Positions 4,409-53,718 of a stretch of 64,000 nt of DNA are shown here, piece by piece. The position numbers and the translations under genes were made by a program. The DNA comes from Spirochaetota bacterium. GTDB lineage: Bacteria; Spirochaetota; UBA4802; UBA5550. The stretch's first letter is position 1. Every line of letters begins with the position of its first letter. Below the pieces are notes generated by a model, which was not told where the DNA came from, ran no database searches, and saw only the letters and a list, made by a program, of their open reading frames with translations. The stretch spans positions 128,077 through 192,076 of the forward strand of contig JAGNKX010000006.1 of the NCBI GenBank assembly GCA_017999915.1, given 5' to 3'.

Positions 4409-7400
4409 GGGTTTTCCCGTCCTTGATCTGTCATCGCGTCGATTATTGAAAGGGCCCCGTCGAAATCATAACCGGAGAGGGCCTTGTGAATTTCCTCCAA
4501 GCGCTCCCTGACCGCCCGGGGCGCCCGCTCAATGATCTTCTCGCAGGCCTCGTGGGAAAAGGCGTCGTTGTCCGCAATGAGGGCCCGCAGCTCCCTGAGC
4601 GCGCCGGACCACGCGGCGCCGTCCGGCTCGATCCCGGGATCGCCCGGTTGTCCGGCACCGCTCGAAAGCCATTGCCGGAGACCCTTCATGACGATATCAT
4701 GATCCGCTTTCAGCGCTTCAAGTATCTCCGTGGTCTCCGATTCGTTCTTCAGCGTGCGCTCCGCGGCGGCGCTCGCGTTGTACAGCTCCCTGGCGCCGAG
4801 GTTTCCCGCCACGGACTTGAGGGAATGGGCGGCCCGGGCGGCGGCCTGGCGGTCCCGCGCTTCCAGCGCCATAAACACATCATCCAGCATCCGGCTGTTC
4901 CGGGCAAAATGCGCCAGGAGCCTCCGGTAGGCCCCGCGGTTGCCGGCGAGATGGCCGAGGCCTTCGGCGATGTCGATCCCCGGGAGGACGGCCGGCAGTT
5001 CCGCCTGCGCGGCCGCTGCGTCTACCGCCGGTTCCCTGTCGGGGATGATATCGAAGGGCTTTGCCGGATCTTGCCTGATGTGTTCCGCAAGGGTGCGGTA
5101 AAGCTTTTCCGGGTCCACCGGCTTGGCCACGTGGGACACCATGCCGGCCTCACGGGCCTTTTTCAGGTCCTGCTCCATGGCGTTTGCGGTCATGGCGATG
5201 ACCGGGATACCGTCGAACTCGCGTTTCGAACGGATGATCCGGGTCGCCTCATACCCGTCCATGACCGGCATCTGCACGTCCATCAGCACGGCGTGGAAAT
5301 CGGCCGTCATCTTTTCCGTGGCGTCCTTTCCGTCGCCGGCCAGGGTGACGGAGAACCCGGCTCCCTCCAGGAGCTCGATGGCCACCTGCTGGTTCAGATC
5401 ATTGTCCTCCACCAGGAGTATCCGCGCGCCCCGGATGTTCCTCACTATGTCCGCCGGATCGCCGCCCCTGCGGCTTTGCCGGGGCGCCGGGCTTTCCTCG
5501 TCGGCGCGCGGCAGGATGTTCATGAGGGTGTCGATGACGGCGGAGGGGCTCACCGGCTTCAGGAGGAACCCGTCCAGGCCGATGTCGTCGGCGCTCTTCA
5601 TGAGCCTCTCCGAGCCGTAGGCGGTCACCATGATGATCTTCGGCGCCGGCGCGAGCTTCGGATCGCCCTTGATCCTCCGCCCGGCCTCCAGGCCGTCCAT
5701 GCCGGGCATGTTCCAGTCCATCAGCACCGCGTCGTACCGCTCCCCGGCGCCCGAGGCCCGTTCCAGCTCGCGCAGCGCCTCTTCGCCGGAGGCGCACGAG
5801 GAGACGGCGAACTGAAGCCGCTCCATCATGTCGGTCAGTATCATCCGGGAGCTCTGGGTGTCGTCCACGACAAGGACCTTCATCCCCTGGAGCTCTTTGA
5901 TCTTCCTTGCCGGTGATATGTCCGGACCTTCCTGCACCTTGAAGAAGGCGTCGAACCTGAAGACGCTCCCAGCGCCGTATTCGCTTTCAACGCGGATGGC
6001 GCCGCCCATCATCTCGACGAGGCGCCGCGAGATCGAGAGGCCCAGTCCCGTGCCCCCGTACCGCCTCGTGGTGGAGCTGTCGGCCTGGGAGAAGGACTGG
6101 AACAGCTTTTCCATCTGCTCCGGCGTCATGCCGATGCCGGTATCCGAAATGGCGAATTCGATCCTGGCGGCGCCGCCGGCCTTTTCCAGCAGCCGGGACC
6201 TGACGACGATCTCGCCCTTTTCCGTGAACTTGACGGCGTTGCTGCAGAGGTTCACCAGCACCTGGTTGAGGCGCAGGGGGTCGCCGATCAGACGGTTGGG
6301 AATATCCGCGCCCGTGTCGAAGATCAGCTCGAGGCGCTTCTCCTGGGCCCTGACGCCGATGATCGTGGAGAGGTTCGCCATGACATCGTCAAGATGGAAG
6401 GGGATCGATTCCATGTCGAGCTTGCCTGCCTCTATCTTGGAGAAGTCCAGTATGTCGTTGATGATCTGCAGCAGGCTGTGGGCGGCCCGGTCGATTTTCA
6501 CCAGGTAGTCCCGCTGCCGCGGGTCGAGGTCGGTCTTCATCGCCAGGTGGGACATGCCGATGATGGCGTTCATCGGGGTCCGTATCTCGTGGGACATGTT
6601 GGCCAGGAACGCGCTCTTGGATATGTTGGCGGCGTCCGCGGCGTCCTTGGCCTCCTTGAGCGCCGTGATGTCGCGCGCCGTCCCGCGGAACCCGACGATC
6701 TCGCCGCGGCTGTTCGTGATCGGATAGGCCGAGGCGGCCGAGTGGGCCGCCTTTCGCCCCTCCCGGGTATACTGCCAGTAGAAATCGCCGGAAGAATTTC
6801 CGGTTTTATAGAGGTCGTGGAATATCTGGAACACGCGGGGCGCCTCATCGGGATCCATGAAGTCGCGGAAGTTCACGCCCTCTATCTCATGCTCGTTGTA
6901 GCCGAGAAAATTCCTCAGGGCGGGGTTGCAGAAGAGAATGTTTCCCTCCAGGTCGACCTCGTAGTAGCCGCTGTCCATGCTTTCGAGGATGGTCCTGTAT
7001 TTTTCCTCCGCTTCCCGGAGCGCCAGCTCGGACCGCCTGCGCCCCGTAATGTCCTCGATGGTTCCCTCGACAAAGACCGGCGCGCCCGTCTCGTCGTAAA
7101 TCATGGTGCCGCTGATGGAGGCGGGAAGGATGGAACCGTCGGAGCGGGCAAAATCCGTCTCGAAACCGGCCACCGGAGCCTCTGAGATTTTCTTCCATAG
7201 ACGCTCCCTGTCGGCCGGGATCGCGTACAGGGCGGAGAGACCCGCGCTGTTCATGTCGTCGATGGAATTGAACCCGAGCATGCCCAGCAGGGCCCGGTTC
7301 GCGGCGAGCACCGTGCCGTCGGTCGAGATCCTGAAAACGCCGATGGGCGAGTTCTCGAAGAGGCGCTGATACTCGATCTCCGAGAGGCGGATCTTTTCGT

Positions 7401-34415: not shown

Positions 34416-34976
34416 ATGATAGACAGGAAACTTGTACAAGACATATATTACAGGCATGGAAAGGAACTCCTGGTCTATATCTGCGGTTTCGTGAAGATAC
34501 GTGAAACCGCCGAAGACCTTCTTCATGATGCGTTTGTGCGGCTCATACGCCATTCCCTCGATCATCAGATCGATGAAAGCAACCTCCGCGCGTTTCTCTA
34601 CCGGATCGCGCGAAATACCTGCATTGACTACCTGAGGAAAAACCGCAAAAAGCATGAAACGGAGCTCCATGAATATATGGAATATGCCCGGTCCGCGTCG
34701 GTCCAGGAGGATGTCGAATACGGCGAGCTGAAGCAAAAGGTTGACGAGCTTGTTGATTCGAAAGACCCGGTCTCCCGGTCGGTATTCATAATGAGGACGG
34801 AGCTCAATATGACCTATGATGATATAGCGGGCAATCTCGGTATCTCCGAACGAACGGCGCAGAGAAAAATGAAGGACATGCTGGAATTCCTGACGGAATC
34901 CCTGGAAAAGGGCGGTTTTACGCTTTTATTTCTGATTATGCTGGCGGTTTTGCTTATGAAAATCGTTTTATATTAA
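34416..34976 (+). CDS. ECF sigma factor with C-terminal transmembrane anchor
   Basis: The protein has 186 residues. Region 2 (~5-75) has ELLVYICGFVKIRETAEDLLHDAFVRLIR and LRAFLYRIARNTCIDYLRK. Region 4 (~100-155) has SRSVFIMRTELNMTYDDIAGNLGISERTAQRKMKDMLEFL. The last ~20 residues, GFTLLFLIMLAVLLMKIVLY, are a clear membrane helix, which is unusual for a sigma factor and would tether it to the membrane. The anti-sigma-like gene follows 17 bp later. Release by anti-sigma loss or cleavage is the simplest model. It is transcribed from a spacer with TTGACG at 34294. Confidence 0.88.
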   Translation: MIDRKLVQDIYYRHGKELLVYICGFVKIRETAEDLLHDAFVRLIRHSLDHQIDESNLRAFLYRIARNTCIDYLRKNRKKHETELHEYMEYARSASVQEDVEYGELKQKVDELVDSKDPVSRSVFIMRTELNMTYDDIAGNLGISERTAQRKMKDMLEFLTESLEKGGFTLLFLIMLAVLLMKIVLY

Positions 34977-34993
34977 TGAAGGGATGATACCCA

Positions 34994-36166
34994 GTGAACG
35001 ACCATGTGACACATGATGAAATGGCATCCTATCTTGCAGATACCCTGCTCCCCGGGGAGCGTGATCGTTTCGACAGCCATATCCGTGAATGCGAAACATG
35101 CCGCGACAAGCTTGATAAGATCAAAATAGCGCTGACGCCCCGCTTCCGGTCGGTGGAATTGCGCGATGAGACCGTCGCGAGAATATTGAGATCGTGGGAC
35201 GCCATACAGGTTGAGGCGGCCCGGGGCGGCATGATCGCATTTCTCAGGAAGCATCCGAGGGCCGCGGTCGCATCGGCGCTGGCGGCAGCGGCGGCGACAA
35301 TCATTGTCGTGTCGGCCCTCATGAACGCGCCCCGGGAGCCGGCCGGCGCCCATTTAACCCTGGGACGCGTCGAGGGGGGTGTTGCTGTCAACGAAGAGCA
35401 GGTCCATGCGGGCGGTAACGTTTTTGGCGGAAGCAGGATAACATTGCCGGATAAGGCGCTGGCGCGCCTTGTCTACGGGGAGATCATGAAAATTGATCTT
35501 ATCTCCAGGTGCGATCTTTCTGTTGATGCCTTTGGATTTGACAGGGCTGATACCATCCGGCTGGAAAACAGCCTCCGCGACGGCATTATCATTTCTTCGA
35601 TACACGACAGCGGAAAGAACGTGAGCTATGTCTATACGACGCCGAACGCCCGTATTGAGTCACAAGGCACCGAGTTCCTGCTTCAGGCCGAGGGAGGAAA
35701 GACCCTGCTGATAATGAAAACTGACGCGGTGCGGGCTATCCACGCGCGATCGGGCAAGAGCGAGATTGTCCCGGCAGGGATGAAGTGCGTCATTTCTGAT
35801 TCGCTTGAGATCATGGCCGCAACGGATGAGGATATGCGAATTTTTGAAAACATCGAGGGACTGCGAAAGGGAGATTTCGGACGCCTCCTTTTACCCGCGT
35901 TCCATGACAGGAAATCCGGCACACAGGGAAAGTCGCCGGCCCCGGGCGATCCAGGCGTGAAAAATGGCGGTTCGATGATGGATAAAGGGAACGGCGCCGC
36001 TGAAAAGGTCCGGGAAGGAGATACGGACGGGCGGGACGCCCGGAGAGAACGGGACAGGGAAATGCGTCAACAGAGAATGGAACAGAAGAAGCTCCATATG
36101 AATGAGATGCGGAGGAGCAGAGGGACCAGCGCGAACCAGCAGATGCAGATGAGAAGGGGGCGTTAG
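34994..36166 (+). CDS. FecR-type anti-sigma factor with zinc-finger N-terminus
   Basis: The protein has 390 residues from a GTG at 34994, 17 bp after the sigma gene. The N-terminus has an anti-sigma zinc finger: HDEMASYLADTLLPGERDRFDSHIRECETCRDKL (HxxxCxxC, ~5-40). One membrane helix follows (~92-112). A periplasmic FecR domain (~120-290) has LTLGRVEGGVAVN, GSRITLPDKALARLVYG, VYTTPNARIESQGTEFLLQAEGGKT. The last ~85 residues are low in complexity and full of Arg, Gln, Met and Lys. It should hold the ECF factor at the membrane and respond to an outer-membrane or periplasmic signal. Confidence 0.9.
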   Translation: MNDHVTHDEMASYLADTLLPGERDRFDSHIRECETCRDKLDKIKIALTPRFRSVELRDETVARILRSWDAIQVEAARGGMIAFLRKHPRAAVASALAAAAATIIVVSALMNAPREPAGAHLTLGRVEGGVAVNEEQVHAGGNVFGGSRITLPDKALARLVYGEIMKIDLISRCDLSVDAFGFDRADTIRLENSLRDGIIISSIHDSGKNVSYVYTTPNARIESQGTEFLLQAEGGKTLLIMKTDAVRAIHARSGKSEIVPAGMKCVISDSLEIMAATDEDMRIFENIEGLRKGDFGRLLLPAFHDRKSGTQGKSPAPGDPGVKNGGSMMDKGNGAAEKVREGDTDGRDARRERDREMRQQRMEQKKLHMNEMRRSRGTSANQQMQMRRGR

Positions 36167-43439: not shown

Positions 43440-43784
43440 ATGAGTAAGAAAGTATATGCCGACATCGGCGTATTGCAGCTGATTTTCCAGACCCTGTCCG
43501 ATGCCAACAGGCTGACAATAATCAAATATATCAATGACAGCGAATGTTCGGTCAGCCAGATCGTGGAAGAGACGGGATTGTCCCAACCTCTCGTATCGCA
43601 TCACTTGAAAACATTGAGGGAACGGCAGATCCTTGAGACCGCCAGGAATGGTCCTTTTATATATTACCGCTTAAAAGATAAAAAATTACTGAAAATCTTC
43701 GATTCGATTTTAGAGGTTGTCGGTCCCATCGATGAAAGCAAGCTCGGCAAGCCATTCAGATGCGGACCAATGTCGTGTCGATGA
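43440..43784 (+). CDS. ArsR/SmtB-family metalloregulator
   Basis: The protein has 114 residues. Winged helix-turn-helix ~12-85: LQLIFQTLSDANRLTIIKYI, VSQIVEETGLSQPLVSHHLKTLRERQILETARNGPFIYYRL. Cys36 sits in the helix before the recognition helix; Cys108 and Cys113 lie in a C-terminal tail CGPMSC. This pattern could build a thiol metal site across the dimer, but the classic CVC of arsenic sensors is absent, so the metal may be other than As(III), such as Cu(I) or Ag(I). It heads an operon with a Met-rich protein 12 bp downstream. Confidence 0.9.
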   Translation: MSKKVYADIGVLQLIFQTLSDANRLTIIKYINDSECSVSQIVEETGLSQPLVSHHLKTLRERQILETARNGPFIYYRLKDKKLLKIFDSILEVVGPIDESKLGKPFRCGPMSCR

Positions 43785-43796
43785 CAGGGAGGAGAA

Positions 43797-44396
43797 ATGA
43801 GCATAAAAGATAAAATGATGGATTCAATGATGGGGAAGATGAGCGCCGAAGAAAAACGGCAGATGATGGAAGCGATGATGAGCAGGTTTTTTGATACTAT
43901 GACGAAGGAGGAAAAACAGAACATGATGCAGGCAATGATGGATAAATTCTTCGGGACCATGTCGGCTGAAGAGAAAAGGGAGATGATGAGCGGCATGATG
44001 CCGAAGATGATGGCGGGCATGATGGGCGGAGGCGGATCCCCCATGATGGGCATGATGAAAAACATGATGGGAAAAATGATGGGCGGAAAAAAGGAAGGCG
44101 ATGAGAAGGAAAGCGGCCCCATGGGATTCAATCCGATGGAAATGTGCCAGAAGATGATGATGAACATGGGAAAAACGAGCGAGATGGCGAGCTATGCCAC
44201 CCCGGAAGTGCGCGCGCTGTTTGAAGAATGGTCGGAACAAATAGAAAATGAGATCTACAATTACCTGAAGGAAACCGGGACGGTTGATCCTGATAACCTT
44301 GCCGAGCATTTCAAGCTTTCAAAAGACAGCATCAATTTCTTTTTGTCCAAGCTTGCGCAAAAGGGAAAAATCAAGCTGAAAGCCGAGAAAGCATAA
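43797..44396 (+). CDS. Methionine-rich protein with C-terminal winged-helix-like domain
   Basis: The protein has 199 residues, of which about 40 are Met, almost all in residues 1-140. The N-terminal half has three near-repeats of the form SAEEKRQMMEAMMSRFFDTM, then runs such as MMPKMMAGMMGGGGSPMMGMMKNMMGKMM. The last ~55 residues (NEIYNYLKETGTVDPDNLAEHFKLSKDSINFFLSKLAQKGKIKLKAE) look like a small winged helix. There is no signal peptide, so it is cytosolic. Met clusters bind Cu(I) or Ag(I) in known copper proteins; the ArsR neighbour supports a metal role. The middle resembles no family I know. Starts after GGAGG, 12 bp after the ArsR stop. Confidence 0.85.
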   Translation: MSIKDKMMDSMMGKMSAEEKRQMMEAMMSRFFDTMTKEEKQNMMQAMMDKFFGTMSAEEKREMMSGMMPKMMAGMMGGGGSPMMGMMKNMMGKMMGGKKEGDEKESGPMGFNPMEMCQKMMMNMGKTSEMASYATPEVRALFEEWSEQIENEIYNYLKETGTVDPDNLAEHFKLSKDSINFFLSKLAQKGKIKLKAEKA

Positions 44397-44963: not shown

Positions 44964-45680
44964 ATGAATAATTTCGGGAAAAAAATAATAATCTATGCTG
45001 CATTTGTCCTGGGGGCCGGATCATTGATTATGTTTTATATGTTCCTGTTCCTGGGTTCATTCACTCTTGTCAATTTGAATATGGGATTGCTCCCGGCGCT
45101 GGCCCTTGACGCCTTTCTTTCCATTCTTTTCTTTCTACAGCACAGCTTGTTGATAAGAAGGAATGTCCGTAATAGACTATCAAAAATAGTACCTGATCCC
45201 TACTATGGCGCGTTCTATGCGATAACATCCGGAGCAGCCTTGCTCATCATGATTCTGTTCTGGCAGCGTACGGCTGCCATCGCAAGCGCAGAAGGACTGA
45301 TCTACTGGCTGCTGCGATTATCATTTATCCTGTCCATGGCAGGGTTTTATTGGGGTGTAAAAGCCCTTGGCGCGTTTGATCCATTTGGTGTTGTGAAAAT
45401 AAAGCTCTCCATGAGGAACAGGGAGCTGAAAATTGTCCCTCTCGCCATAAGGGGGCCCTACCGGTGGGTGCGACACCCATTATATTTTTTCTCGCTTATA
45501 ATGATATGGGCCTGTCCCGATCTTGCGTTTGACAAACTGCTCTTCAATGTCATGTGGTCCCTGTGGATTTTTATTGCTACAATGCTTGAGGAGCGGGACC
45601 TGGTTCGTGAGTTTGGAAATGGATACCGTGAATATCAGAAAAAGGTGCCGATGCTGATCCCCTATAAGAAACCGTTATAA
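44964..45680 (+). CDS. Isoprenylcysteine carboxyl methyltransferase / NnrU-like membrane protein
   Basis: The protein has 238 residues with about six membrane segments. The C-terminal signature RGPYRWVRHPLYFFSLIMIW and EERDLVREFGNGYREYQKKVPMLIP is that of ICMT/PEMT-type membrane methyltransferases (SAM binding by the RHP and EE motifs) and NnrU relatives. The substrate, whether a lipid, thiol or quinone head, is unknown. A second gene of this superfamily lies at 47460-48029. It forms a two-gene unit with the membrane gene just upstream. Confidence 0.82.
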   Translation: MNNFGKKIIIYAAFVLGAGSLIMFYMFLFLGSFTLVNLNMGLLPALALDAFLSILFFLQHSLLIRRNVRNRLSKIVPDPYYGAFYAITSGAALLIMILFWQRTAAIASAEGLIYWLLRLSFILSMAGFYWGVKALGAFDPFGVVKIKLSMRNRELKIVPLAIRGPYRWVRHPLYFFSLIMIWACPDLAFDKLLFNVMWSLWIFIATMLEERDLVREFGNGYREYQKKVPMLIPYKKPL

Positions 45681-45804: not shown

Positions 45805-45896
45805 GTCACCGGGAAGGGGCGAAACGGCCTGCGGAACTCGGACAAAAAAATGAAAACTCAGACAGTCCTCGGCTCGTTCCGCCCCTTCCCGGTGAC
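45805..45896. repeat. Long hairpin element with 22-bp near-perfect inverted arms
   Basis: The left arm (45805-45826) reads GTCACCGGGAAGGGGCG then AAACG. The right arm (45875-45896) is its complement with one mismatch, GTCACCGGGAAGGGGCG reversed. The 48 bp between includes an A-run and partly complementary flanks. It lies 58 bp upstream of an ECF sigma gene. It could be a transcript hairpin, a small MITE-like insertion or a terminator of the previous operon; no target-site duplication is obvious. Confidence 0.7.
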
Positions 45897-45953: not shown

Positions 45954-46544
45954 ATGCTCAGCTACAATGAAATACATGACAGCTATTATCAAAAAATATT
46001 GAGGTACCTGTCCCGTATCGTGGGGCAGGATGAGGCTGAGGATATTTCCCAGGAAGTATTCATAAAAATCAATAAAAGCCTCGATACGCTTCAGGATGAA
46101 AATAAGCTTACCTATTGGATTTATCGCGTTGCCCTCAACGCCGCCCGGGACCATATCAGAACGAAGAAATCGAAAGTACCCGTTGTCTCTATTGAGGACC
46201 TTGCAGGTTCGATGGACTCCGGATGCCACTCCAGGCTGAAAGAGTTTGCCGATAGCCGCGCCAAAACTCCTGAGGAAAAGCTGATAAAGGATGAAATGCT
46301 GCAGTGCTACATCGATTACGTTGAAAAACTGCCGGAAAAATATTACCAAATATATGTCCTCGATGAATTCGAGGGCTTTTCCAACCAGGAAATCGCCGAC
46401 AAGCTTTCAATAAGCCTGGATACCGTTAAGATCAGGCTCCACCGGGCCAGAAACGAGCTCAATGAGCTGCTGAGGAAAAACTGCAGTTGTTATTCCGATA
46501 AAAACGGCAATATCATGTGCGAGCCGTGCGAACCTAAAGAATAA
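45954..46544 (+). CDS. ECF sigma factor with cysteine-rich C-terminal tail
   Basis: The protein has 196 residues. Region 2 (~5-80): YYQKILRYLSRIVGQDEAEDISQEVFIKINKSL and LTYWIYRVALNAARDHIRTKK. Region 4 (~125-175): LPEKYYQIYVLDEFEGFSNQEIADKLSISLDTVKIRLHRARNEL. The last ~20 residues, KNCSCYSDKNGNIMCEPCEPKE, hold four Cys in CSC...CEPC form, a likely metal or thiol sensing tail of the kind that lets a sigma factor act without an anti-sigma partner. No anti-sigma gene is adjacent. It is followed by a run of tiny Cys proteins (46752-47429), which are its probable targets. Confidence 0.88.
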   Translation: MLSYNEIHDSYYQKILRYLSRIVGQDEAEDISQEVFIKINKSLDTLQDENKLTYWIYRVALNAARDHIRTKKSKVPVVSIEDLAGSMDSGCHSRLKEFADSRAKTPEEKLIKDEMLQCYIDYVEKLPEKYYQIYVLDEFEGFSNQEIADKLSISLDTVKIRLHRARNELNELLRKNCSCYSDKNGNIMCEPCEPKE

Positions 46545-46751
46545 GACACACCAATATACATAGACCCCCCTCGTGGCCCTGGCCGGAAGTCTGGCGGGCA
46601 TAGAGTCTATCCGAAGTAATCCTTTAAAAAATCAAAAAAATCATCTCCTTCCGTATCCTTCGCGTTGCCGTATCCGTCATTTGAAATAGATGGCTGATAC
46701 AACACGAAATGGCGAAGCCACGAATCGGTATTAATATTTTGGAGGTATGAA
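46545..46751. other. Spacer between sigma gene and the mini-protein cassette
   Basis: 207 bp, AT-rich toward its right end. A minus-strand frame here (ending GDDFFDFLKDYFG) is open but has no ribosome site. A promoter for the downstream cassette is expected near 46690-46740 and may be the target of the ECF factor, but no -35/-10 of its type can be proposed. Confidence 0.45.
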
Positions 46752-46934
46752 ATGGTTGAATCCATAATGAACTTACACAAATGTGCCGACTGCTCTATCC
46801 GGTGCAGGGCACAGGCGAGGCCGCGGTCGCTTTTTGCACGCATTCATCGGTGGCATATGAAATGGTGGCCCGGCTGGAGGATCTACCAGGAGGAGCTGCG
46901 CGCCGATGGCGCCAAGGCAATGACGTGCATTTGA
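46752..46934 (+). CDS. Tiny Cys/Trp protein A (CxxC ... W-x2-W-x2-WxxYQxEL)
   Basis: The protein has 60 residues with GGAGG six bases before the ATG. After HKCADCSIRC (two CxxC-like pairs) it reads IHRWHMKWWPGWRIYQEELRADG and ends AMTCI. It is clearly homologous to the protein at 47253-47429: both share C..C, R-I-x-x-W-H-x-x-W-x-P-G-W-x-x-Y-Q-x-E-L-R and MTC. The invariant Cys, His and Trp suggest a metal or Fe-S site and membrane-surface contact. I know of similar unnamed ~60-residue proteins in anaerobes but no function. Confidence 0.75.
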   Translation: MVESIMNLHKCADCSIRCRAQARPRSLFARIHRWHMKWWPGWRIYQEELRADGAKAMTCI

Positions 46935-47023
46935 GAATGGACGGCAGGATGGTTTCCGGGCATACTTGGCAGCGGAAACCATCCTGCACAGCTGCATCTA
47001 ATTTAAAATCGGAGGACATAATA

Positions 47024-47266
47024 ATGAGAGAAAAACGGGAACATGTCGAAAGCAGGTTCTTTTCCGCTGCTTTTGGCGTAATAATCATCGCGGTAGGGCT
47101 GGGTTGGTTGTTGCAGACAATCGGAGTCCTGCCTGAAGGGTTTGAAATTTTAAACTACGTTTGTCCTGTCTGTATCGTTCTTTTGGGTATGCGGATACTG
47201 ATAGGGCATACCACGAAAGGAAATAATAATCAAAAAATTATGGAGAATACCAATGTCAAAATGTGA
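47024..47266 (+). CDS. Small two-helix membrane protein (DUF5668-like)
   Basis: The protein has 80 residues from the ATG at 47024, after CGGAGGAC. Two hydrophobic segments (~13-31 and ~43-62) are joined by a short loop: FSAAFGVIIIAVGLGWLL and EILNYVCPVCIVLLGMRILI. The CPVC pair inside the second helix may bind metal. This matches small LiaI/DUF5668-type membrane proteins. Its 3' end overlaps the start of mini-protein B by 14 bp (47253), so the two are translationally coupled. Confidence 0.75.
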   Translation: MREKREHVESRFFSAAFGVIIIAVGLGWLLQTIGVLPEGFEILNYVCPVCIVLLGMRILIGHTTKGNNNQKIMENTNVKM

Positions 47267-47429
47267 ACATTGCAAATTCAGGAATTATTCGGAGAAAAAC
47301 CCGGAAAAACTGATCAGCAGGATCTGGAAATGGCACACCACCTGGTGCCCGGGATGGAAAAAATACCAGCGGGAGCTCAGGAAAAGTGAATTTTCCTGCT
47401 GCCAGGGCATGACTTGTGCTGAGAAGTAA
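47253..47429 (+). CDS. Tiny Cys/Trp protein B (paralogue of A)
   Basis: The protein has 58 residues: it starts MSKCEHCKFR, continues ISRIWKWHTTWCPGWKKYQR and ends FSCCQGMTCAEK. It overlaps the preceding gene by 14 bp in another frame. Compared with protein A it has one more Cys in WCPGW and a CC pair before MTC. The frame was too short for usual ORF lists but the paralogy to A, the clean start and the stop at 47427-47429 support it. The next gene starts 30 bp later. Confidence 0.75.
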   Translation: MSKCEHCKFRNYSEKNPEKLISRIWKWHTTWCPGWKKYQRELRKSEFSCCQGMTCAEK

Positions 47430-47459
47430 CATTAAATAAATCGAGGAGAGGTGCGTGAG

Positions 47460-48029
47460 ATGTTACAGTATGGTATGCTGGCCGGTTTTATTTCATTCTC
47501 GATCGTTCTGGCGCTGTTCGTGATACGGATCGTTTCGAGGGGCATCAGCATTGTTGCCAGGCCGCCTATCAATCCGCTGGCATTTGTAACAGCCAAACTA
47601 TGCGCCTTTTCTTCATGCTTTTTCATCCCGGCCGGTATTATCCGGCCGGAGCTGAAATGGTATGAGGCGCCGGAATGGCTGGGCCTGACCGCATTGCTGC
47701 CGTTTTTCTCCGGGATAGTTATCGCGGCTGTGGCAATGAAAAAGCTGGGCGATGATCTTATCTTCGGACTTCCTGAAGGCTCTATAAGCTCCCTTAAAAC
47801 CGATGGGATCTTCAGGTTCAGCAGAAATCCTCTCTACCTCGGATTCATCCTGCTCATCCTGTCATCGTGCCTGATTACGCCGAATCCCTTCAATTTTGCG
47901 GCGGCAATCATTGCGATTCTCATTCATCACAGGATAATCCTGCAGGAGGAGAATTATCTGTTGTCCAGGCTCGGGGATAGGTATAAGGATTATATGAAAG
48001 CGACAGGGAGATATTTATTACGCATATAG
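47460..48029 (+). CDS. Isoprenylcysteine methyltransferase-like membrane protein (PEMT fold)
   Basis: The protein has 189 residues from the ATG at 47460, nine bases after GAGGAG; a GTG at 47451 is too close to the ribosome site. About five membrane segments. The C-terminal part TDGIFRFSRNPLYLGFILLILSS and LQEENYLLSRLGDRYKDYMKATGRYL carries the RNP/RHP-like and EE..YxxY motifs of ICMT/PEMT methyltransferases. Second member of this superfamily within 3 kb. It probably ends the operon of the mini-proteins. Substrate unknown; modification of a thiol or lipid is a plain guess. Confidence 0.82.
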   Translation: MLQYGMLAGFISFSIVLALFVIRIVSRGISIVARPPINPLAFVTAKLCAFSSCFFIPAGIIRPELKWYEAPEWLGLTALLPFFSGIVIAAVAMKKLGDDLIFGLPEGSISSLKTDGIFRFSRNPLYLGFILLILSSCLITPNPFNFAAAIIAILIHHRIILQEENYLLSRLGDRYKDYMKATGRYLLRI

Positions 48030-48085: not shown

Positions 48086-48119
48086 TTGACAATTATTGCA
48101 ATATTGGCAAAATTGTCAA
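48086..48119. promoter_or_regulatory. Operator of the arsenic-island ArsR
   Basis: TTGACAATT (48086-48094) and its exact complement AATTGTCAA (48111-48119) form a 9-bp inverted repeat. The first arm is also a perfect -35. TTGTCAAATTGTCA at 48508-48521, before the thioredoxin gene, repeats the half-site, so ArsR may also bind there. Confidence 0.7.
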
Positions 48120-48141: not shown

Positions 48142-48477
48142 ATGGATCCGAAAGTCTGGTCATTGTGCGAAGCCCGAGCCAATATAATCAAAGCAGTCTC
48201 TCATCCGGCGAGGCTATTTATAGTAGAGGAGCTGCAAAAGGGAGAGAGGTGCGTGTGTGAATTGACCGAAATGCTGGATTTCGATACATCCACTATATCG
48301 AAGCACCTGTCCATATTGAAAAATGCCGGCATCCTCGGCGACAGGAGAGATGGAACCAAAAGCATTTATTTTTTAAAGGTTCCCTGCATACTCAACTTCT
48401 TCGGGTGTATTGAGGAAGTGATGGAATCGAATCTTAAACAGCAGAATGAGATTCTCATGACCTGCAAGAAAAGGTAA
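48142..48477 (+). CDS. arsR: ArsR-family arsenic-responsive repressor
   Basis: The protein has 111 residues from the ATG at 48142. Winged helix ~10-85. GERCVCELTEMLDFDTSTISKHLSIL places Cys37 and Cys39 in the alpha3 CVC motif, the As(III)/Sb(III) site of ArsR proteins. Further Cys residues follow in PCILNFFGC and MTCKK. It heads the arsenic island and has a palindromic site at its promoter. Gap to the thioredoxin gene is 65 bp with a second half-site pair. Confidence 0.92.
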   Translation: MDPKVWSLCEARANIIKAVSHPARLFIVEELQKGERCVCELTEMLDFDTSTISKHLSILKNAGILGDRRDGTKSIYFLKVPCILNFFGCIEEVMESNLKQQNEILMTCKKR

Positions 48478-48542: not shown

Positions 48543-48782
48543 ATGATGTTGCTGGAAATACTCGGAAGCGGCTGCGCCAAGTGCAAAAAACTCGAGGAGT
48601 TGACGAAAGAGGCGGTTGGTGAAATGGGAGTCGATGCTTTTGTAAATCATGTCACAGACATCAAGGTAATAATGAACTATGGCGTCATGACCACGCCAGC
48701 CCTGGTAGTTGACGGAGTGGTGAAGGTCGCCGGTAAAGTGCCGTCTAAAGATGAAATTAAAAAATTGATAAGCACTAAATAG
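48543..48782 (+). CDS. Small thioredoxin-fold protein (redox-active disulfide family)
   Basis: The protein has 79 residues. The CxxC motif GSGCAKC (Cys11/Cys14) opens the fold, and GVMTTPALVVDGVVKVAGKVPS holds the cis-Pro loop. This matches the MTH895-type mini-thioredoxins often found next to DUF318 permeases. It could reduce ArsC or feed electrons to the ArsF-like protein. Start after AGGAGGAAC. 11 bp before the permease. Confidence 0.88.
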   Translation: MMLLEILGSGCAKCKKLEELTKEAVGEMGVDAFVNHVTDIKVIMNYGVMTTPALVVDGVVKVAGKVPSKDEIKKLISTK

Positions 48783-48793
48783 AGGATAGATTC

Positions 48794-49873
48794 ATGAGCG
48801 AGTGCTGTACCGGGAATAATACGAGTCCAACCATTGACTCTCAAAACAATGAGAGAAAAATAAAGCTGACGGCCCTATTGCCGTTATTGCTCATCCCTGT
48901 TGGTATCGTTCTGTATATTTTTCTTGAAAGCGGTGTAAATTACATTGTCTATTCCTTGCTTGGATTGGACAAGACCTCGCATCTTACCGAAGCGATACGC
49001 TTTTTTCTGTTTGAAGTGCCCAAGGTCCTGCTGCTTCTGACATTCATCGTTTTTGTCGTTGGCATTATCCGTTCCTTTTTTTCACCGGAAAAAACACGCA
49101 AAGCCCTGGAAGGGAAGCCCCTCTTTGTTGGAAACATCATGGGAGCCACCCTCGGTATTGTAACGCCATTTTGTACCTGCTCCGCGATCCCGCTTTTTCT
49201 CGGATTCATGGAGGGCGGCATCCCCCTGGGTGTCACATTCTCCTTTCTGGTGGCGGCTCCCATGATCAATGAAGTCGCGCTCGTGCTCCTCTTCGGTCTG
49301 TTTGGATGGAAGACGGCTGTTTTATACGCCTCCACCGGCCTTATTATCGCGATACTGTCCGGCTGGATCATCGGTAAACTGAAAGTTCAGCGTTTTGTCG
49401 AGGATTGGGTTTATGAAATAAAGGCGGGGAAAATCGAGATCGAAGAAAGAAAAATAACATTCATTGAAAGAATACAGGCGGGATATCTTGCCGTAATAGA
49501 TATCGTCTCAAAGGTGTGGGTATATATCGTGATCGGGATTGCCGTGGGAGCGGGAATACACGGTTACGTTCCGGAGAATTTCATGGCGTCCATCATGGGA
49601 AAATCGGCATGGTGGTCTATACCGGTGGCTGTTCTCATCGGCGTGCCCATGTATTCGAACGCAGCCGGCATTATCCCGATAGTCCAGGCCCTTCTCGAAA
49701 AGGGCGCGTCCCTCGGGACCACGCTTGCCTTCATGATGTCGGTCATCGGGCTTTCGCTTCCGGAGATGATTATTTTAAAAAAGGTCCTTAAGCTGCCGCT
49801 GATCTTCATATTTGTCGGCATCGTTGCGGTGGGCATTATGATCGTTGGATATGTTTTCAATCTGATATATTAA
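48794..49873 (+). CDS. DUF318 family permease (ArsP-like organoarsenical exporter)
   Basis: The protein has 359 residues with about eight membrane helices. The hallmark GIVTPFCTCSAIPLFLGF (Cys127 and Cys129) and VAAPMINEVALVLLFGLFGW repeat with IGVPMYSNAAGIIPIVQALLEKG later. Characterised ArsP proteins of this family export trivalent methyl- and aromatic arsenicals. The N-terminal SECCTG adds two Cys. Co-transcribed with the mini-thioredoxin 11 bp upstream and the DGC protein 28 bp downstream. Confidence 0.88.
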   Translation: MSECCTGNNTSPTIDSQNNERKIKLTALLPLLLIPVGIVLYIFLESGVNYIVYSLLGLDKTSHLTEAIRFFLFEVPKVLLLLTFIVFVVGIIRSFFSPEKTRKALEGKPLFVGNIMGATLGIVTPFCTCSAIPLFLGFMEGGIPLGVTFSFLVAAPMINEVALVLLFGLFGWKTAVLYASTGLIIAILSGWIIGKLKVQRFVEDWVYEIKAGKIEIEERKITFIERIQAGYLAVIDIVSKVWVYIVIGIAVGAGIHGYVPENFMASIMGKSAWWSIPVAVLIGVPMYSNAAGIIPIVQALLEKGASLGTTLAFMMSVIGLSLPEMIILKKVLKLPLIFIFVGIVAVGIMIVGYVFNLIY

Positions 49874-49901: not shown

Positions 49902-50300
49902 ATGGCTGATTGTTGTTCTGGCGGCGTAAAACTATTGTATTCATGCTCCGGCGCGGCCGATGTTGGCCAGATTGCGGACCAGGTTTCTCGAAAGCTCCGT
50001 GATAAGGGATTCGCGCGCCTTACCTGTCTTGCCGGTGTCGGAGCGGACCTTTCGGGCTTTGTTGAATCCGCCCGCGGCGCTGATCTGAACATTACCATTG
50101 ACGGCTGCGGGACCATGTGCGCGAAAAAAGCGCTCGAACGAGTCGGTGTTTCTGCTACCTCATATGTTCTGACTGATTTTGGCATTGAGAAGGGTAAAAC
50201 CCCTTTTACCGAGAAGATTGTGGCTGAATTGAGCGACAGGATCATGGGGCAGGGTGCGCCGATATCTGAAGCAAAGGCTTCGGGTTGCTCGTGCAGTTAG
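49902..50300 (+). CDS. DGC-domain putative zinc-binding protein
   Basis: The protein has 132 residues. It starts MADCCSGGVKLLYSCSGAADVGQIADQVSRKL, continues ITIDGCGTMCAKKALERVG (the DGC motif) and ends in SGCSCS. Three Cys clusters would make a thiolate metal site. Proteins of this family occur next to arsenic and thiol-stress genes; function is not established. It could be the partner that pairs with the ArsF-like protein in organoarsenical reduction, but this is inferred from position only. Confidence 0.82.
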   Translation: MADCCSGGVKLLYSCSGAADVGQIADQVSRKLRDKGFARLTCLAGVGADLSGFVESARGADLNITIDGCGTMCAKKALERVGVSATSYVLTDFGIEKGKTPFTEKIVAELSDRIMGQGAPISEAKASGCSCS

Positions 50301-50334: not shown

Positions 50335-50817
50335 ATGAAAATAAGAAGGATAGTGACTATTGTATTATCGATTTTTGTAGCTACTAGTATTGTCTACCTT
50401 GTCGCAACAGAAGTGCGAAAGCCGGATAAAACCGAAACAGCATCGGAAGGAACGCAACAAAATGCCGCGGCCATGGAAAACCATGCGATCACGGTCTATT
50501 ATTTTCATACAACGTTCCGGTGTCCAACCTGCCGGAAAATTGAGGCATTGACCGAATCGACGGTTAAGAACTTTTTTTCTGCGGAATTGGCGGAAAAGAA
50601 AATCATATGGAAGCCGGTAAATATTGAGCTGCCTGAAAACAGGCATTTTGCCGACGATTACAAGCTGTTCACAAAATCAGTGGTTATCGTTGATTCGGCT
50701 AGCGGCAAGCAGATACGATGGAAGAACCTGGATAAAATCTGGGAGCTGGTGCGGGATGAATCGGCTTTTACTTGTTATATTAAAAACGAGATAACAGGAT
50801 ATTTAAAGGGCATATGA
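50335..50817 (+). CDS. arsF: Membrane-anchored thioredoxin-like ArsF-family protein
   Basis: The protein has 160 residues. An N-terminal anchor (~5-25) and a Gln/Ala/Glu linker lead to a thioredoxin-like domain with YYFHTTFRCPTCRKIEALTE (Cys63/Cys66) and FTKSVVIVDSASGKQI. It matches the ArsF family named from the organoarsenical ArsEFG system, in which ArsE and ArsF reduce nitroaryl arsenicals and ArsG exports the amines. The stop overlaps the next start by 4 bp, so it is coupled to the ArsG-like permease. Confidence 0.82.
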   Translation: MKIRRIVTIVLSIFVATSIVYLVATEVRKPDKTETASEGTQQNAAAMENHAITVYYFHTTFRCPTCRKIEALTESTVKNFFSAELAEKKIIWKPVNIELPENRHFADDYKLFTKSVVIVDSASGKQIRWKNLDKIWELVRDESAFTCYIKNEITGYLKGI

Positions 50818-51512
50818 GCGAAGGAATATCATCCGGCTTGATTGCCGCCATCTGGCTGGGCATTCTCACGTCAATAAGCCCCTGTCCCCTTGCGACAAAC
50901 ATCGCCGCTGTCTCTTTTATCGGAAAAAACGCCGCTGAAGCAAAAAAGGTCTTTATCACCGGAACATTGTATCTGCTGGGAAGGGCGACCGCCTATGCCG
51001 CGCTTGCGGCGTTAATTGTCGCGAGCCTGCTTTCTATTCCGGCGGTGTCAAACTTTTTGCAGAGTTATATAAACAAGATACTCGGTCCGGTTCTCATCAT
51101 TGCCGGTATGCTTCTCATGGAGCTTGTAAGCCTTCCGGCCGGCAGAGGGACCGATACATCAAGGCTCCAGCGCCTTGCGGAAAAGAACCTTTTTGCCGCT
51201 TCCTTCGCGATGGGAATTATATTCGCTCTCGCCTTTTGTCCGGTATCAGCGGCATTGTTTTTCGGGAGTCTTATCCCTGTCGCTGTCCAACAACAATCGC
51301 CGGTCCTTCTCCCCGCTATTTATGGCGCCGGCACGGCCTTGCCGGTTTTATTCTTTGCGCTGGTGCTGGCTTTCGGTGCCAACTATCTATCAAAGGTTTT
51401 CAATGCCGTTTCCCGCGTCGAAGTGTGGGCGCGGAGAATTACCGGTGTGTTATTTATTTTGATAGGCGTATATTTCTGCCTCACCTACATCTTTAAAATA
51501 CAAATGTGGTAA
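50814..51512 (+). CDS. arsG: ArsG-family (CcdA-like) arsenical efflux permease
   Basis: The protein has 232 residues, about six membrane segments. The N-terminal GILTSISPCPLATNIAAVSFIG has the PCP of the CcdA/DsbD fold, and GIIFALAFCPVSAALFFGSLIP the second Cys. The ArsG family exports trivalent aminobenzyl arsenicals. Coupled by a 4-bp overlap to the ArsF-like gene, 14 bp before acr3. A plain CcdA role is less likely as no cytochrome-c maturation genes are near. Confidence 0.85.
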   Translation: MSEGISSGLIAAIWLGILTSISPCPLATNIAAVSFIGKNAAEAKKVFITGTLYLLGRATAYAALAALIVASLLSIPAVSNFLQSYINKILGPVLIIAGMLLMELVSLPAGRGTDTSRLQRLAEKNLFAASFAMGIIFALAFCPVSAALFFGSLIPVAVQQQSPVLLPAIYGAGTALPVLFFALVLAFGANYLSKVFNAVSRVEVWARRITGVLFILIGVYFCLTYIFKIQMW

Positions 51513-51526
51513 TGGAAGGTTGAATC

Positions 51527-52573
51527 ATGACAGAACAAGTATCCAGGAAACTTTCTTTTCTCGATCGCTTTCTGACACTGTGGATATTCCTCGCGATGTT
51601 CGCGGGTGTTTTTACCGGATATTTCTTTCCCGGCATCGTCGATTTCTGGAATCGGTTCCAGTCGGGAACGACCAATATACCGATTGCCATCGGCCTGATA
51701 TTGATGATGTACCCGCCTTTAGCCAAGGTCAAATACGAGGAGTTGGGCGATGTGTTTACCAACTGGAAGGTGCTCGGCCTTTCGCTCGTCCAGAACTGGA
51801 TCATCGGACCGGTGCTCATGTTCCTGTTGGCCATCGCGCTGCTTAACGGATATCCGGAATACATGGTGGGCCTCATCATGATCGGTCTTGCCCGCTGCAT
51901 AGCCATGGTCATCGTGTGGAACGACCTGGCGAGCGGCGATACGGAATACGCGGCAGGCCTGGTCGCCTTCAACAGCATCTTCCAGGTCCTGTTTTTCAGC
52001 GTGTACGCCTGGTTCTTTATTACCATCCTGCCGCCGCTTTTCGGCCTGAAGGGCAGCATCGTCGATATCACCATAGGACAGATCGCTAAAAGCGTTTTTA
52101 TCTACCTGGGCATACCCTTTATCGCGGGGATCATTACCCGTTTCGTTCTTCTTAAAGTCAAAACCAAAGAATGGTATCAAACGAAATTCATACCCAAGAT
52201 AAGCCCGATAACGCTGATCGCCCTGTTGTTCACCATCTTTGTCATGTTCAGCATGAAGGGCGAGTATATTGTGAAGATACCGATGGATGTCGTGCGCATC
52301 GCCATTCCGCTTTTGATTTACTTTATAGTGATGTTCATGGTCAGTTTCTTTATGAGCAAAAAGATCGGGGCCGGATACCCGGTGGCTGCGACTCTTTCAT
52401 TTACAGCGGCGAGCAACAACTTTGAGCTGGCCATTGCCGTGGCCGTAGCGGTCTTTGGTATAGGCTCCGGTGTGGCCTTTGCCGCAGTCATTGGGCCCCT
52501 CATCGAGGTGCCGGTCATGATAGGGCTGGTGAACGTGGCTCTTTATTTCAGAAAGAAGTATTTTGTATCTTAA
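51527..52573 (+). CDS. acr3: ACR3-type arsenite efflux transporter
   Basis: The protein has 348 residues with about ten membrane helices. [19 protein letters not shown] holds the essential Cys124 of the ACR3 family. Other family marks are [14 protein letters not shown] and [23 protein letters not shown]. It exports As(III) (some also Sb(III)) by proton antiport. The start follows GGAAGGT. An RNA-hairpin-like palindrome (52576-52595) separates it from the MtrA-like gene. Confidence 0.95.
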
Positions 52574-52613: not shown

Positions 52614-53291
52614 TTGTTAAAAGTTAAGCCACATCCGGATTATCCCTGTGAACCAGGGCGATATATCCGTGGCAATGATTTTTCTCCGGCAGCGGTAGTC
52701 ATTATCCTTAACACTGATGAGGATAAAATCCCTCCGGAAATTGAGGCCCTGGTGCGGGCAGGGGCTGAAACCGGAGCCGCCCTGTCAGGCACGGTGCAGA
52801 CGCCGAACATAGGCTTCGAGAAAATGATATGCAACATAGTGGCAAATCCGAATATACGCTATATCGTGCTTGGAGGACCGGAATCTGACGGTCATCAGAC
52901 TGGATCCGCCTTGAAATCCCTGCTTGCAAATGGCATTGACGAGAAGAAGAAAATCATTGGCACAGAGGCTATGCATGCGTGCCTCTACAATATCCCCATG
53001 GAATTCATCGAGCGATTCAGAAAACAGATAGCCCTTATTGACCTTCAGTTTCAGGGAGACCCAAACCTTATTCGCAAAGCGGTATGGTCCTGTTTCCAGG
53101 AAACACCGGTGGATTTTATGGGACATGATGTGCATGATCCCGGCGCTTATCCTGAGGAACCTCTTGCCGGGAAATTGACCTGGCAGGTCACTCAGCCCTG
53201 GTCGGTTCCCTGTGATAAGGGGGAACAAGATGCTGTTAATAAAGCAAAAGAGCTTATGGAACGGCTCAGGAAGAGAAATACAAATGAGTGA
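52614..53291 (+). CDS. MtrA-like corrinoid-binding-domain protein in the arsenic island
   Basis: The protein has 225 residues from a TTG at 52614 with GGAGTG upstream; no better start exists. It follows the MtrA fold closely: PNIGFEKMICNIVANPNIRYIVLGGPESDGHQTGSALKSLLANGIDEKKKIIG is the cobamide-binding region of tetrahydromethanopterin S-methyltransferase subunit A, with His93 at the place of the cobalt-binding His. The C-terminal membrane helix of methanogen MtrA is absent, so it is soluble. It lies between acr3 and arsC, whose start overlaps its stop. A corrinoid methyl carrier for arsenic methylation or demethylation is a tempting but unproven role. Confidence 0.85.
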   Translation: MLKVKPHPDYPCEPGRYIRGNDFSPAAVVIILNTDEDKIPPEIEALVRAGAETGAALSGTVQTPNIGFEKMICNIVANPNIRYIVLGGPESDGHQTGSALKSLLANGIDEKKKIIGTEAMHACLYNIPMEFIERFRKQIALIDLQFQGDPNLIRKAVWSCFQETPVDFMGHDVHDPGAYPEEPLAGKLTWQVTQPWSVPCDKGEQDAVNKAKELMERLRKRNTNE

Positions 53292-53718
53292 AAATAAATT
53301 ACAGATTTTATTCCTCTGCACCGGCAACTCCTGCAGGAGCCAGATGGCCGAGGGGCTGGCGCGTCATTTCAAGGGCGCCATCATGGAAGCGTGCTCCGCA
53401 GGCACGGAGCCGAAAGGCCTTGACCCGCGCGCTGTTGCGGTCATGGCGGAAATCGGCATAGATATATCCCGGCAGCGATCCAAGCATGTAAATGAATTTG
53501 CCGGCCGGGAATTTGATTTTGTGATTACCCTGTGCGGCGGGGCGCAGGAAACCTGCCCTTTCTTCCCGGGAAAGACAAAGACAATGCACGCGGGTTTCGA
53601 TGATCCGCCCGAACTCGCCCGTAGCGCCGCATCTGAAGAAGAGGCCCTCGGTCATTACCGGCGCGTCCGTGACGAGATACGGGTGTTCATTATGAAGTTC
53701 GAAGAGTTGTCGGCTTGA
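53284..53718 (+). CDS. arsC: Arsenate reductase, thioredoxin-coupled LMW-phosphatase type
   Basis: The protein has 144 residues from the ATG at 53284, overlapping the upstream stop by 8 bp. The P-loop LCTGNSCRS gives Cys12 and Arg18, the redox pair is Cys84/Cys91 (TLCGGAQETCPFF), and the DDPPE loop (~106-110) supplies the acid. All residues of the pI258-type ArsC mechanism are present. It makes As(III) for ACR3. Possible reductants are the mini-thioredoxin and ArsF-like proteins of the same island. Convergent with the flavin-reductase gene. Confidence 0.95.
   Translation: MSENKLQILFLCTGNSCRSQMAEGLARHFKGAIMEACSAGTEPKGLDPRAVAVMAEIGIDISRQRSKHVNEFAGREFDFVITLCGGAQETCPFFPGKTKTMHAGFDDPPELARSAASEEEALGHYRRVRDEIRVFIMKFEELSA

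Follow-up and report, generated by a model that had tools for sequence, protein, structure and literature searches.

Organization of the locus

We analyzed a 64,000-nucleotide stretch of DNA from a Spirochaetota bacterium (assembly GCA_017999915.1, contig JAGNKX010000006.1, positions 128,077 to 192,076 of the forward strand). This whole stretch is called the window below, and coordinates are counted from its first letter. The analysis centered on a sigma factor of the extracytoplasmic function (ECF) type with a cysteine-containing tail, and on two small proteins, mini1 and mini2, encoded just downstream. An earlier reading of the sequence alone had described a five-gene array here, and all five open reading frames (ORFs) were found on the plus strand at the positions it gave:

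45954..46544, plus strand, sigma factor ORF, 196 aa
46305..46307, plus strand, codon of C118 at the start of sigma region 4, Cys in 18/18 homologues in the alignment
46482..46541, plus strand, Cys tail of 20 residues (C177-S-C179...C189-E-P-C192), predicted beta-hairpin
46752..46934, plus strand, mini1, 60 aa, a CxxC/W/H microprotein with WHMKWWPGW and without the fourth ligand Cys
47024..47266, plus strand, small membrane protein, like LiaF-TM and LiaI-LiaF TM1, both below the Pfam cut-off
47253..47429, plus strand, mini2, 58 aa, complete C-x2-C-x20-H-x3-C-P-G-W core
47460..48029, plus strand, PEMT/ICMT-type membrane methyltransferase (PF04191 1.7e-10, PF04140 5.1e-06)

The small membrane protein scored 24.4 bits against the LiaF-TM model (cut-off 27), and the methyltransferase scored 45 bits against the isopcys_mtase model, under the cut-off of 160. 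The methyltransferase ORF as first called spanned 47451-48029; the ATG at 47460, a little 3' of GAGGAGAGG, appears to be the likelier start and is preferred here. The start of mini2 overlaps the end of the membrane gene, and Shine-Dalgarno-like sequences were recognized by eye 5' of mini1, the membrane gene and mini2. We found no anti-sigma gene in the sigma operon.

The sigma factor and its conserved cysteines

The protein matched Pfam Sigma70_r2 and Sigma70_r4_2 above cut-off and scored 86.5 bits with TIGR02937 (cut-off 42.9); judged by these profiles, it is an ECF-type sigma factor with regions 2 and 4 present. The top named models were those for SigZ, TIGR02959 (114.8 bits, cut-off 168.65) and NF007215 (116 bits, cut-off 212), and both matches were below cut-off. 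The tail indeed carries the CSC and CEPC motifs read earlier, as C177-S-C179 and C189-E-P-C192. Solved ECF relatives such as SigW stop aligning near profile position 174, so the tail extends beyond them. Strands were predicted at residues 179-181 and 187-189, with a mean predicted local distance difference test (pLDDT) score of 64 for residues 181-190 and 44 beyond; such a hairpin would place its Cys residues close to each other.

We collected 18 sigma homologues including the window's own. This set is a collection and not a census, and its E thresholds varied per search from 1e-20 to 1e-40. SigZ of Priestia megaterium was kept outside the 18 and two weaker matches (L144, L145) were also left out, while a member with an aberrant tail (L178) was included in the counts and excluded from the structure alignment (17 rows). 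C118 and C177 were present in all 18 proteins as well as in SigZ of Priestia. A third Cys, in the tail, was present in 15/18, of the C189 type in 13 (among them the window protein, which has C179 as well) and as C179 alone in L171 and L172. Of the 13 further ECFs encoded in this genome, 12 lacked the C118/C177 pair. The exception (L190, G000:C24:6357-6857) is of a different ECF type, with Cys in both marker columns, a C-x8-CRC stretch and a long C-terminal extension, and may be a thiol or zinc sensor as well.

Sigma homologues were found in 3/59 and 4/392 genomes of the window's phylum (own genome counted in each). Some members of the set came from mini-bearing genomes, and for the other phyla sampled the counts were 3/247 (G301), 2/301 (G321) and 9/297 (G299) genomes. 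A search at E 1e-40 of 296 genomes from the phylum of G317, a Lentimicrobiaceae metagenome-assembled genome (MAG), yielded none, with no positive control there. The SigZ-like group is patchily distributed. A plasmid search with the sigma factor returned 93 records, every one below 60% identity. In the tree the window protein grouped with L093, L171 and L172 (99/99), and a second group (95/96) contained eleven others. The tree neither shows nor excludes that the Cys tail arose once, and it gave neither a firm grouping nor a firm separation of Priestia SigZ from the window group. L173-L175 are too closely related to count as independent, and the contigs of L147 and L170 stop just past the sigma gene, leaving no downstream neighbors visible.

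The nearest homologue by identity (50%) lies in a genome of the same family, G007, in the order sigma, LiaF-TM-like protein, MddA-like methyltransferase. The window holds the same three kinds of gene, with a LiaF-TM-like protein and membrane methyltransferases around the sigma factor. The methyltransferase upstream of the sigma gene, which has a relative in the G007 sigma operon, is:

44964..45680, plus strand, MddA/NnrU-like membrane methyltransferase (NF045656 112 bits, below the cut-off of 270)

As far as two loci can indicate, the sigma factor, the LiaF-TM-like protein and a membrane methyltransferase may form an older core in the window's family to which the minis were added later. The CPVC motif noted earlier in the small membrane protein is present in the window and is not retained in the G007 homologue.

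Arsenic and AhpD-like genes near the sigma factors

An arsenic operon, which the sequence-only reading had missed, starts ~110 nt past the methyltransferase gene:

48086..48119, no strand, 17+17 palindrome with promoter-like hexamers 5' of arsR, candidate ArsR operator
48142..48477, plus strand, ArsR-type regulator (HTH_metalloreg 81 bits, cut-off 55)
48543..48782, plus strand, ArsE/MTH895-type thioredoxin-like protein (TIGR00412 107.9 bits, cut-off 62)
48794..49873, plus strand, ArsP_1-family permease (PF03773 249.6 bits, cut-off 32.3)
49902..50300, plus strand, DGC-domain protein (PF08859 93.1 bits, cut-off 27)
50335..50817, plus strand, ArsF-family protein (NF040494 117.6 bits, cut-off 60)
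50814..51512, plus strand, ArsG-family permease (NF040495 274.6 bits, cut-off 200)
51527..52573, plus strand, ACR3 arsenite efflux transporter (TIGR00832 447.4 bits, cut-off 282.8)
52614..53291, plus strand, MtrA-like protein
53284..53718, plus strand, ArsC-like arsenate reductase of the thioredoxin type (TIGR02691 135.1 bits, below the cut-off of 174.3; Pfam LMWPc)

ArsR, an arsenite efflux pump and an arsenate reductase, the constituents by which an ars operon is recognized, thus lie in one array downstream of the sigma and mini genes. With ArsE, ArsF, ArsG, ACR3, ArsR, ArsP_1 and an ArsC-like protein, the operon is of the known arsEFG type; what is unusual in the window is that it adjoins a sigma factor and minis. 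The palindrome is likely the operator of ArsR.

Arsenic genes were found at 4/18 sigma loci, the window included. At L146, arsM, an AhpD-like gene and the sigma gene run in one direction and face arsR, arsP and arsE; at L158 the order is arsM, sigma, AhpD-like, all co-directional. An acr3-like gene (128 bits, below the ACR3 cut-off) adjoins the sigma gene at L159, where an AhpD-like gene lies 1.6 kb off. Genes for AhpD-like CxxC proteins were in turn detected at 10/18 loci (L094, L146, L158, L159, L171, L173, L174, L175, L177, L178), in eight cases at most 0.4 kb from the sigma gene. Five of the ten served to build the AhpD profile and so match it by design; the other five were found through it. 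The same profile detected no AhpD-like gene in the 829,254 bases of 89 control loci, which comprised 13 ECF loci from a single genome and 76 others (mini loci plus the spurious L061). Arsenic queries likewise gave no match at the 13 control ECF loci; the remaining controls gave two weak matches, one ArsR-like and the other to a methyltransferase. DGC-domain genes were present at three of the 18 sigma loci (window, L160, L177). The gene caller lost short genes beneath longer false ORFs, so the neighbor tables are incomplete; profile search alone recovered the L157 mini and several of the AhpD-like genes. The caller also rendered GTG and TTG starts as M.

Judged by listings, the open literature contained no account of an ECF with both a Cys tail and an arsenic link, a scope that leaves aside subscription papers, including the 2021 ECF re-classification. 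The Cys-tailed sigma group in its arsenic/AhpD setting is a more interesting object than the minis.

The mini-protein family

With mini2 as query, 56 loci were found in genome contigs, of which 55 were clear relatives in other genomes, a recurrence well beyond chance; the 56th (L061) was dropped as a 9-residue match only. The 55 belonged to Chloroflexota (46), Acidobacteriota (3), deltaproteobacterial MAGs (3, one Syntrophaceae and one Desulfobacteraceae among them) and Lentimicrobiaceae, Phycisphaerae and Chlorobiota (one each). Minis occurred in 20/39 genomes among the window's relatives (own genome counted) and in 23/296 genomes of its phylum, every one in the window's order. The window's genome has three clear copies, the third being L111. 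No relative was found in viral contigs, and a phage trait was rejected on that ground.

Members are ~50 residues long with an almost invariant W-x-W-H-x3-C-P-G-W core. In the alignment of 76 members, H28, P33, G34 and W35 were present in all, C4 and C7 in 75 (the remaining row being cut by a contig end) and C32 in 75. The full C-x2-C-x20-H-x3-C pattern was seen in 74/76, with mini1 and the contig-end-cut row as exceptions, and its spacing was constant elsewhere. The Cys residues had been taken as invariant across both minis of the window, which does not hold: mini1 carries W where 75 of the 76 aligned members carry C32 and has lost one ligand. The C-terminal MTC, read as part of the shared pattern, is common to the two window minis and was found in no other listed mini protein.

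A scan of the 76 members matched no Pfam or NCBIfam family significantly (lowest E values 0.01 and 0.016, in scattered matches), and mini2 had no PDB match by sequence or fold. The AlphaFold2 mini model has three helices (mean pLDDT 71.9). Most likely the minis are four-ligand (C-C-H-C) zinc-type microproteins. An Fe-S device, suggested earlier, finds no support in the pattern, the spacing of which would suit a four-ligand zinc site better.

A lipoprotein-like N-terminus, with a hydrophobic segment and a lipobox-like Cys, was recognized by eye at 5/20 mini loci of the window's order (L111 at 6862-7167, L100, L101, L106 and L112), in the window's genus and one related genus. In these members the domain may have an extracytoplasmic role, and the segment argues against a purely nucleic-acid-binding role of the minis. 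Neighbors of mini loci, inspected by eye, were mostly unrelated and formed small recurring groups only. LiaF-like genes recurred at six loci (L009 and L010 being near copies) and a cation-efflux gene at four; at L109, L113 and L114, all from the window's order, the mini lies just 5' of a glutathione-peroxidase-like and a MarR/OhrR-like gene, a setting that suggests a link to peroxide stress. In the Syntrophaceae MAG, three minis stand in a row (L013, 1306-3256).

The check proposed by the sequence-only reading was whether a Cys-tailed sigma gene is a constant neighbor of the minis. None of the 75 other mini loci (L006-L060 and L095-L114, where L111 is from the window's own genome) had one; the sole ECF among them, at L051, has a zinc-finger-like anti-sigma and no Cys tail. 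Relatives of the sigma factor were found in 4/46 mini-bearing genomes (E 1e-20), never on the contig of the mini. Conversely, minis were present at 2/18 sigma loci, the window and L157, and none was found in the G007 genome. L157, from the phylum of the Syntrophaceae MAG, has the order sigma, SHOCT membrane protein, mini-like protein, Met/Cys-rich protein; its mini-like protein (E 9.2e-10) retains CEHC and HADHC and has PLW instead of PGW. These counts reject a constant mini-sigma pair, as well as the idea of a mini cassette governed by the sigma factor as a general system. Lack of Cys conservation, or absence from the vicinity of such sigma factors, had been named as what would speak against the proposal: Cys is conserved, and proximity is rare, yet seen in two phyla. 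As a family of microproteins the minis are widespread and stand apart, joining the sigma group only occasionally.

Comparison with known systems

Like the window protein, SigZ of P. megaterium (plasmid sigZ, NZ_CP137803.1) has C118, C177 and a D-x-x-G-N-I turn in the tail, with no anti-sigma annotated in the stretch examined; unlike it, SigZ lacks a second tail Cys and arsenic neighbors. In this one SigZ compared, the Cys directly after region 4 aligns with C177.

Three reports offered further comparisons. In OrbS of Burkholderia cenocepacia, a C-terminal Cys cluster serves as an on-board anti-sigma (PMC9023288), a precedent for Cys-tail sensing in an ECF; OrbS is an iron-starvation sigma factor, and what it shares with the window protein is the tail feature. 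CorE and CorE2 (ECF44, ECF238) demonstrate metal sensing by Cys tails of ECFs: they have a metal-sensing Cys-rich C-terminal extension and Cys near the sigma2-sigma4 linker (PMC8999054). The window protein differs from CorE, with its Cys-rich domain and CXC motif in the linker, in having a 20-residue hairpin and a single C118; its sequence contains no CXC before region 4, which separates it from the CorE-like groups. The neighbor looked for in ECF41 is a carboxymuconolactone decarboxylase (CMD), oxidoreductase or epimerase gene; in the window group an AhpD-like CxxC gene, of a related kind, stood at 10/18 loci, and none was found in the window. ECF41 sigma factors, too, have no anti-sigma, and they show that CMD/AhpD-type genes can be targets of such a sigma factor (PMC3426412). 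They differ by a fused regulatory domain, whereas the window protein has a short tail and no CMD gene in the window. Pfam found no C-terminal domain past region 4 in the window sigma factor, which ends ~20 residues later, and in this it departs from ECF41.

Proposed mechanism and alternatives

The explanation that we favor, at a probability of roughly 0.48, is a thiol-switched sigma factor with accessory zinc-type minis. In this view the activity of the ECF sigma factor, whose operon contains no partner anti-sigma, would depend on thiols of the protein itself: C118 where region 4 begins, C177 past the last helix, and a third Cys on the hairpin tail (here C179 and C189). Either oxidation or a poison that binds thiols, most likely trivalent arsenic in inorganic or organic form, would bridge or modify these thiols and shift the placement of region 4, such that only under this stress would the sigma factor work with RNA polymerase. 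It would then transcribe its own operon of mini1, the LiaF-TM-like protein, mini2 and the membrane methyltransferase, with the minis as accessory metal- or thiol-handling proteins; the neighboring arsenic operon would stay under its own ArsR and likely operator. An on-board switch is proposed because the thiols flank region 4, the tail is an extension, no anti-sigma was found and the neighbors are thiol- and arsenic-related. As(III) favors three thiols, which fits C118, C177 and a tail Cys. The genes, their conserved thiols, the neighboring arsenic and AhpD-like genes and the mini family with its core are observed; we infer the thiol sensing, its ligand, the control of the operon by the sigma factor and the zinc binding by the minis. 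The earlier suggestion that the tail is the sensor was thus a fair reading as to a Cys tail conserved across several phyla and the lack of an anti-sigma in the operon, and sensing itself belongs to what we infer. A narrower version, in which the lineage is a direct sensor of trivalent arsenicals switched on through a three-thiol site of C118, C177 and the hairpin Cys, having recruited a new cytosolic and exported zinc-type family in the minis, we consider unlikely; under it, a sigma factor besides ArsR would control arsenic detoxification (arsM, AhpD-like and acr3 genes, here the mini/methyltransferase operon).

Several observations weigh against the favored explanation. Arsenic genes stand at only four of the 18 loci, three of those four in one subclade, and the profile found no AhpD-like (CMD-type) gene in the window itself. 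The third tail Cys is missing in L093, L147 and L178, of which L093 is closest by identity, and confidence in the tail model is modest. Searching upstream of the sigma operons with a simple ECF promoter pattern revealed no shared motif, and most minis are unconnected with a Cys-tailed sigma factor. In addition, a redox switch fits nearly as well as arsenic sensing because AhpD-like genes are the commonest neighbor.

Under that redox alternative, which is possible though doubtful, the sigma factor would be a disulfide or peroxide switch, a general thiol-stress regulator moving with stress islands, and its adjacency to arsenic genes would be secondary. The excess of AhpD-like over arsenic loci (10/18 against 4/18) speaks for it, as do YgaP-like transmembrane genes at L171 and L172 and an aminotransferase-V gene at L171, which we take to be SufS-like. 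ECF41 factors, also without an anti-sigma, target CMD genes (PMC3426412). On the other hand, the window's arsenic operon, together with an acr3-like gene and arsM arrays at two separate loci, is more than one would expect of a generic stress setting, and arsenic queries matched no control ECF locus. The Cys residues could instead be structural, for example a tail-stabilizing zinc site, with the sigma factor regulated at transcription alone. Priestia SigZ, with C118 and C177, no third tail Cys and no arsenic genes annotated nearby, would agree with this; so would the many metal-related genes around the sigma factors, for which metal control of expression alone could suffice. A third Cys that shifts position and is missing in 3/18 is unlike a rigid structural zinc site, and we regard this explanation as quite improbable. 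Even less credit goes to the minis as signal receptors of the sigma factor, anti-sigma-like or adaptor proteins, as the cassette idea had implied. Sigma factor and mini do share one operon-like array in the window and at L157 in another phylum, and simple arithmetic (3 minis, 5.46 Mb genome) puts the chance of a mini within 0.5 kb at ~5e-4. Against such a role, none of the 75 other mini loci has a Cys-tailed sigma factor, 16 of the 18 sigma loci lack a mini, and G007 carries the sigma factor with no mini found.

Bacterial arsenic responses are commonly attributed to ArsR-type repressors. If the thiol-switched sigma factor is real, with its links in several phyla to AhpD-like, arsM and acr3-like genes, it would be a second control layer, and the Cys-tailed sigma factors would be an unstudied class of on-board sensor. 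The minis, for their part, are a widespread family undescribed in Pfam and NCBIfam, occurring as free proteins and, in the window's genus, apparently as lipoproteins.

Other features of the window

Upstream of the sigma gene lies an inverted repeat with a strong predicted fold:

45805..45896, no strand, 31-nt inverted repeat, z -6.3

Parts of it recur at four other sites of the genome with 86-94% identity, and it was rejected as a system-specific element. A perfect 15-nt inverted repeat at 46944-46987, between mini1 and the membrane gene, has z -4.7 and no T-run 3' of it. At 43440-44396 an ArsR-type regulator (TsoR model 91.7 bits, cut-off 115) precedes a Met-rich protein that weakly matches the selenoprotein TsoA (77 bits, cut-off 170). 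A second ECF sigma factor lies within the window at about 34464-36166, and the protein after it has a zinc-finger-like N-terminus and by eye resembles a canonical anti-sigma/FecR partner.

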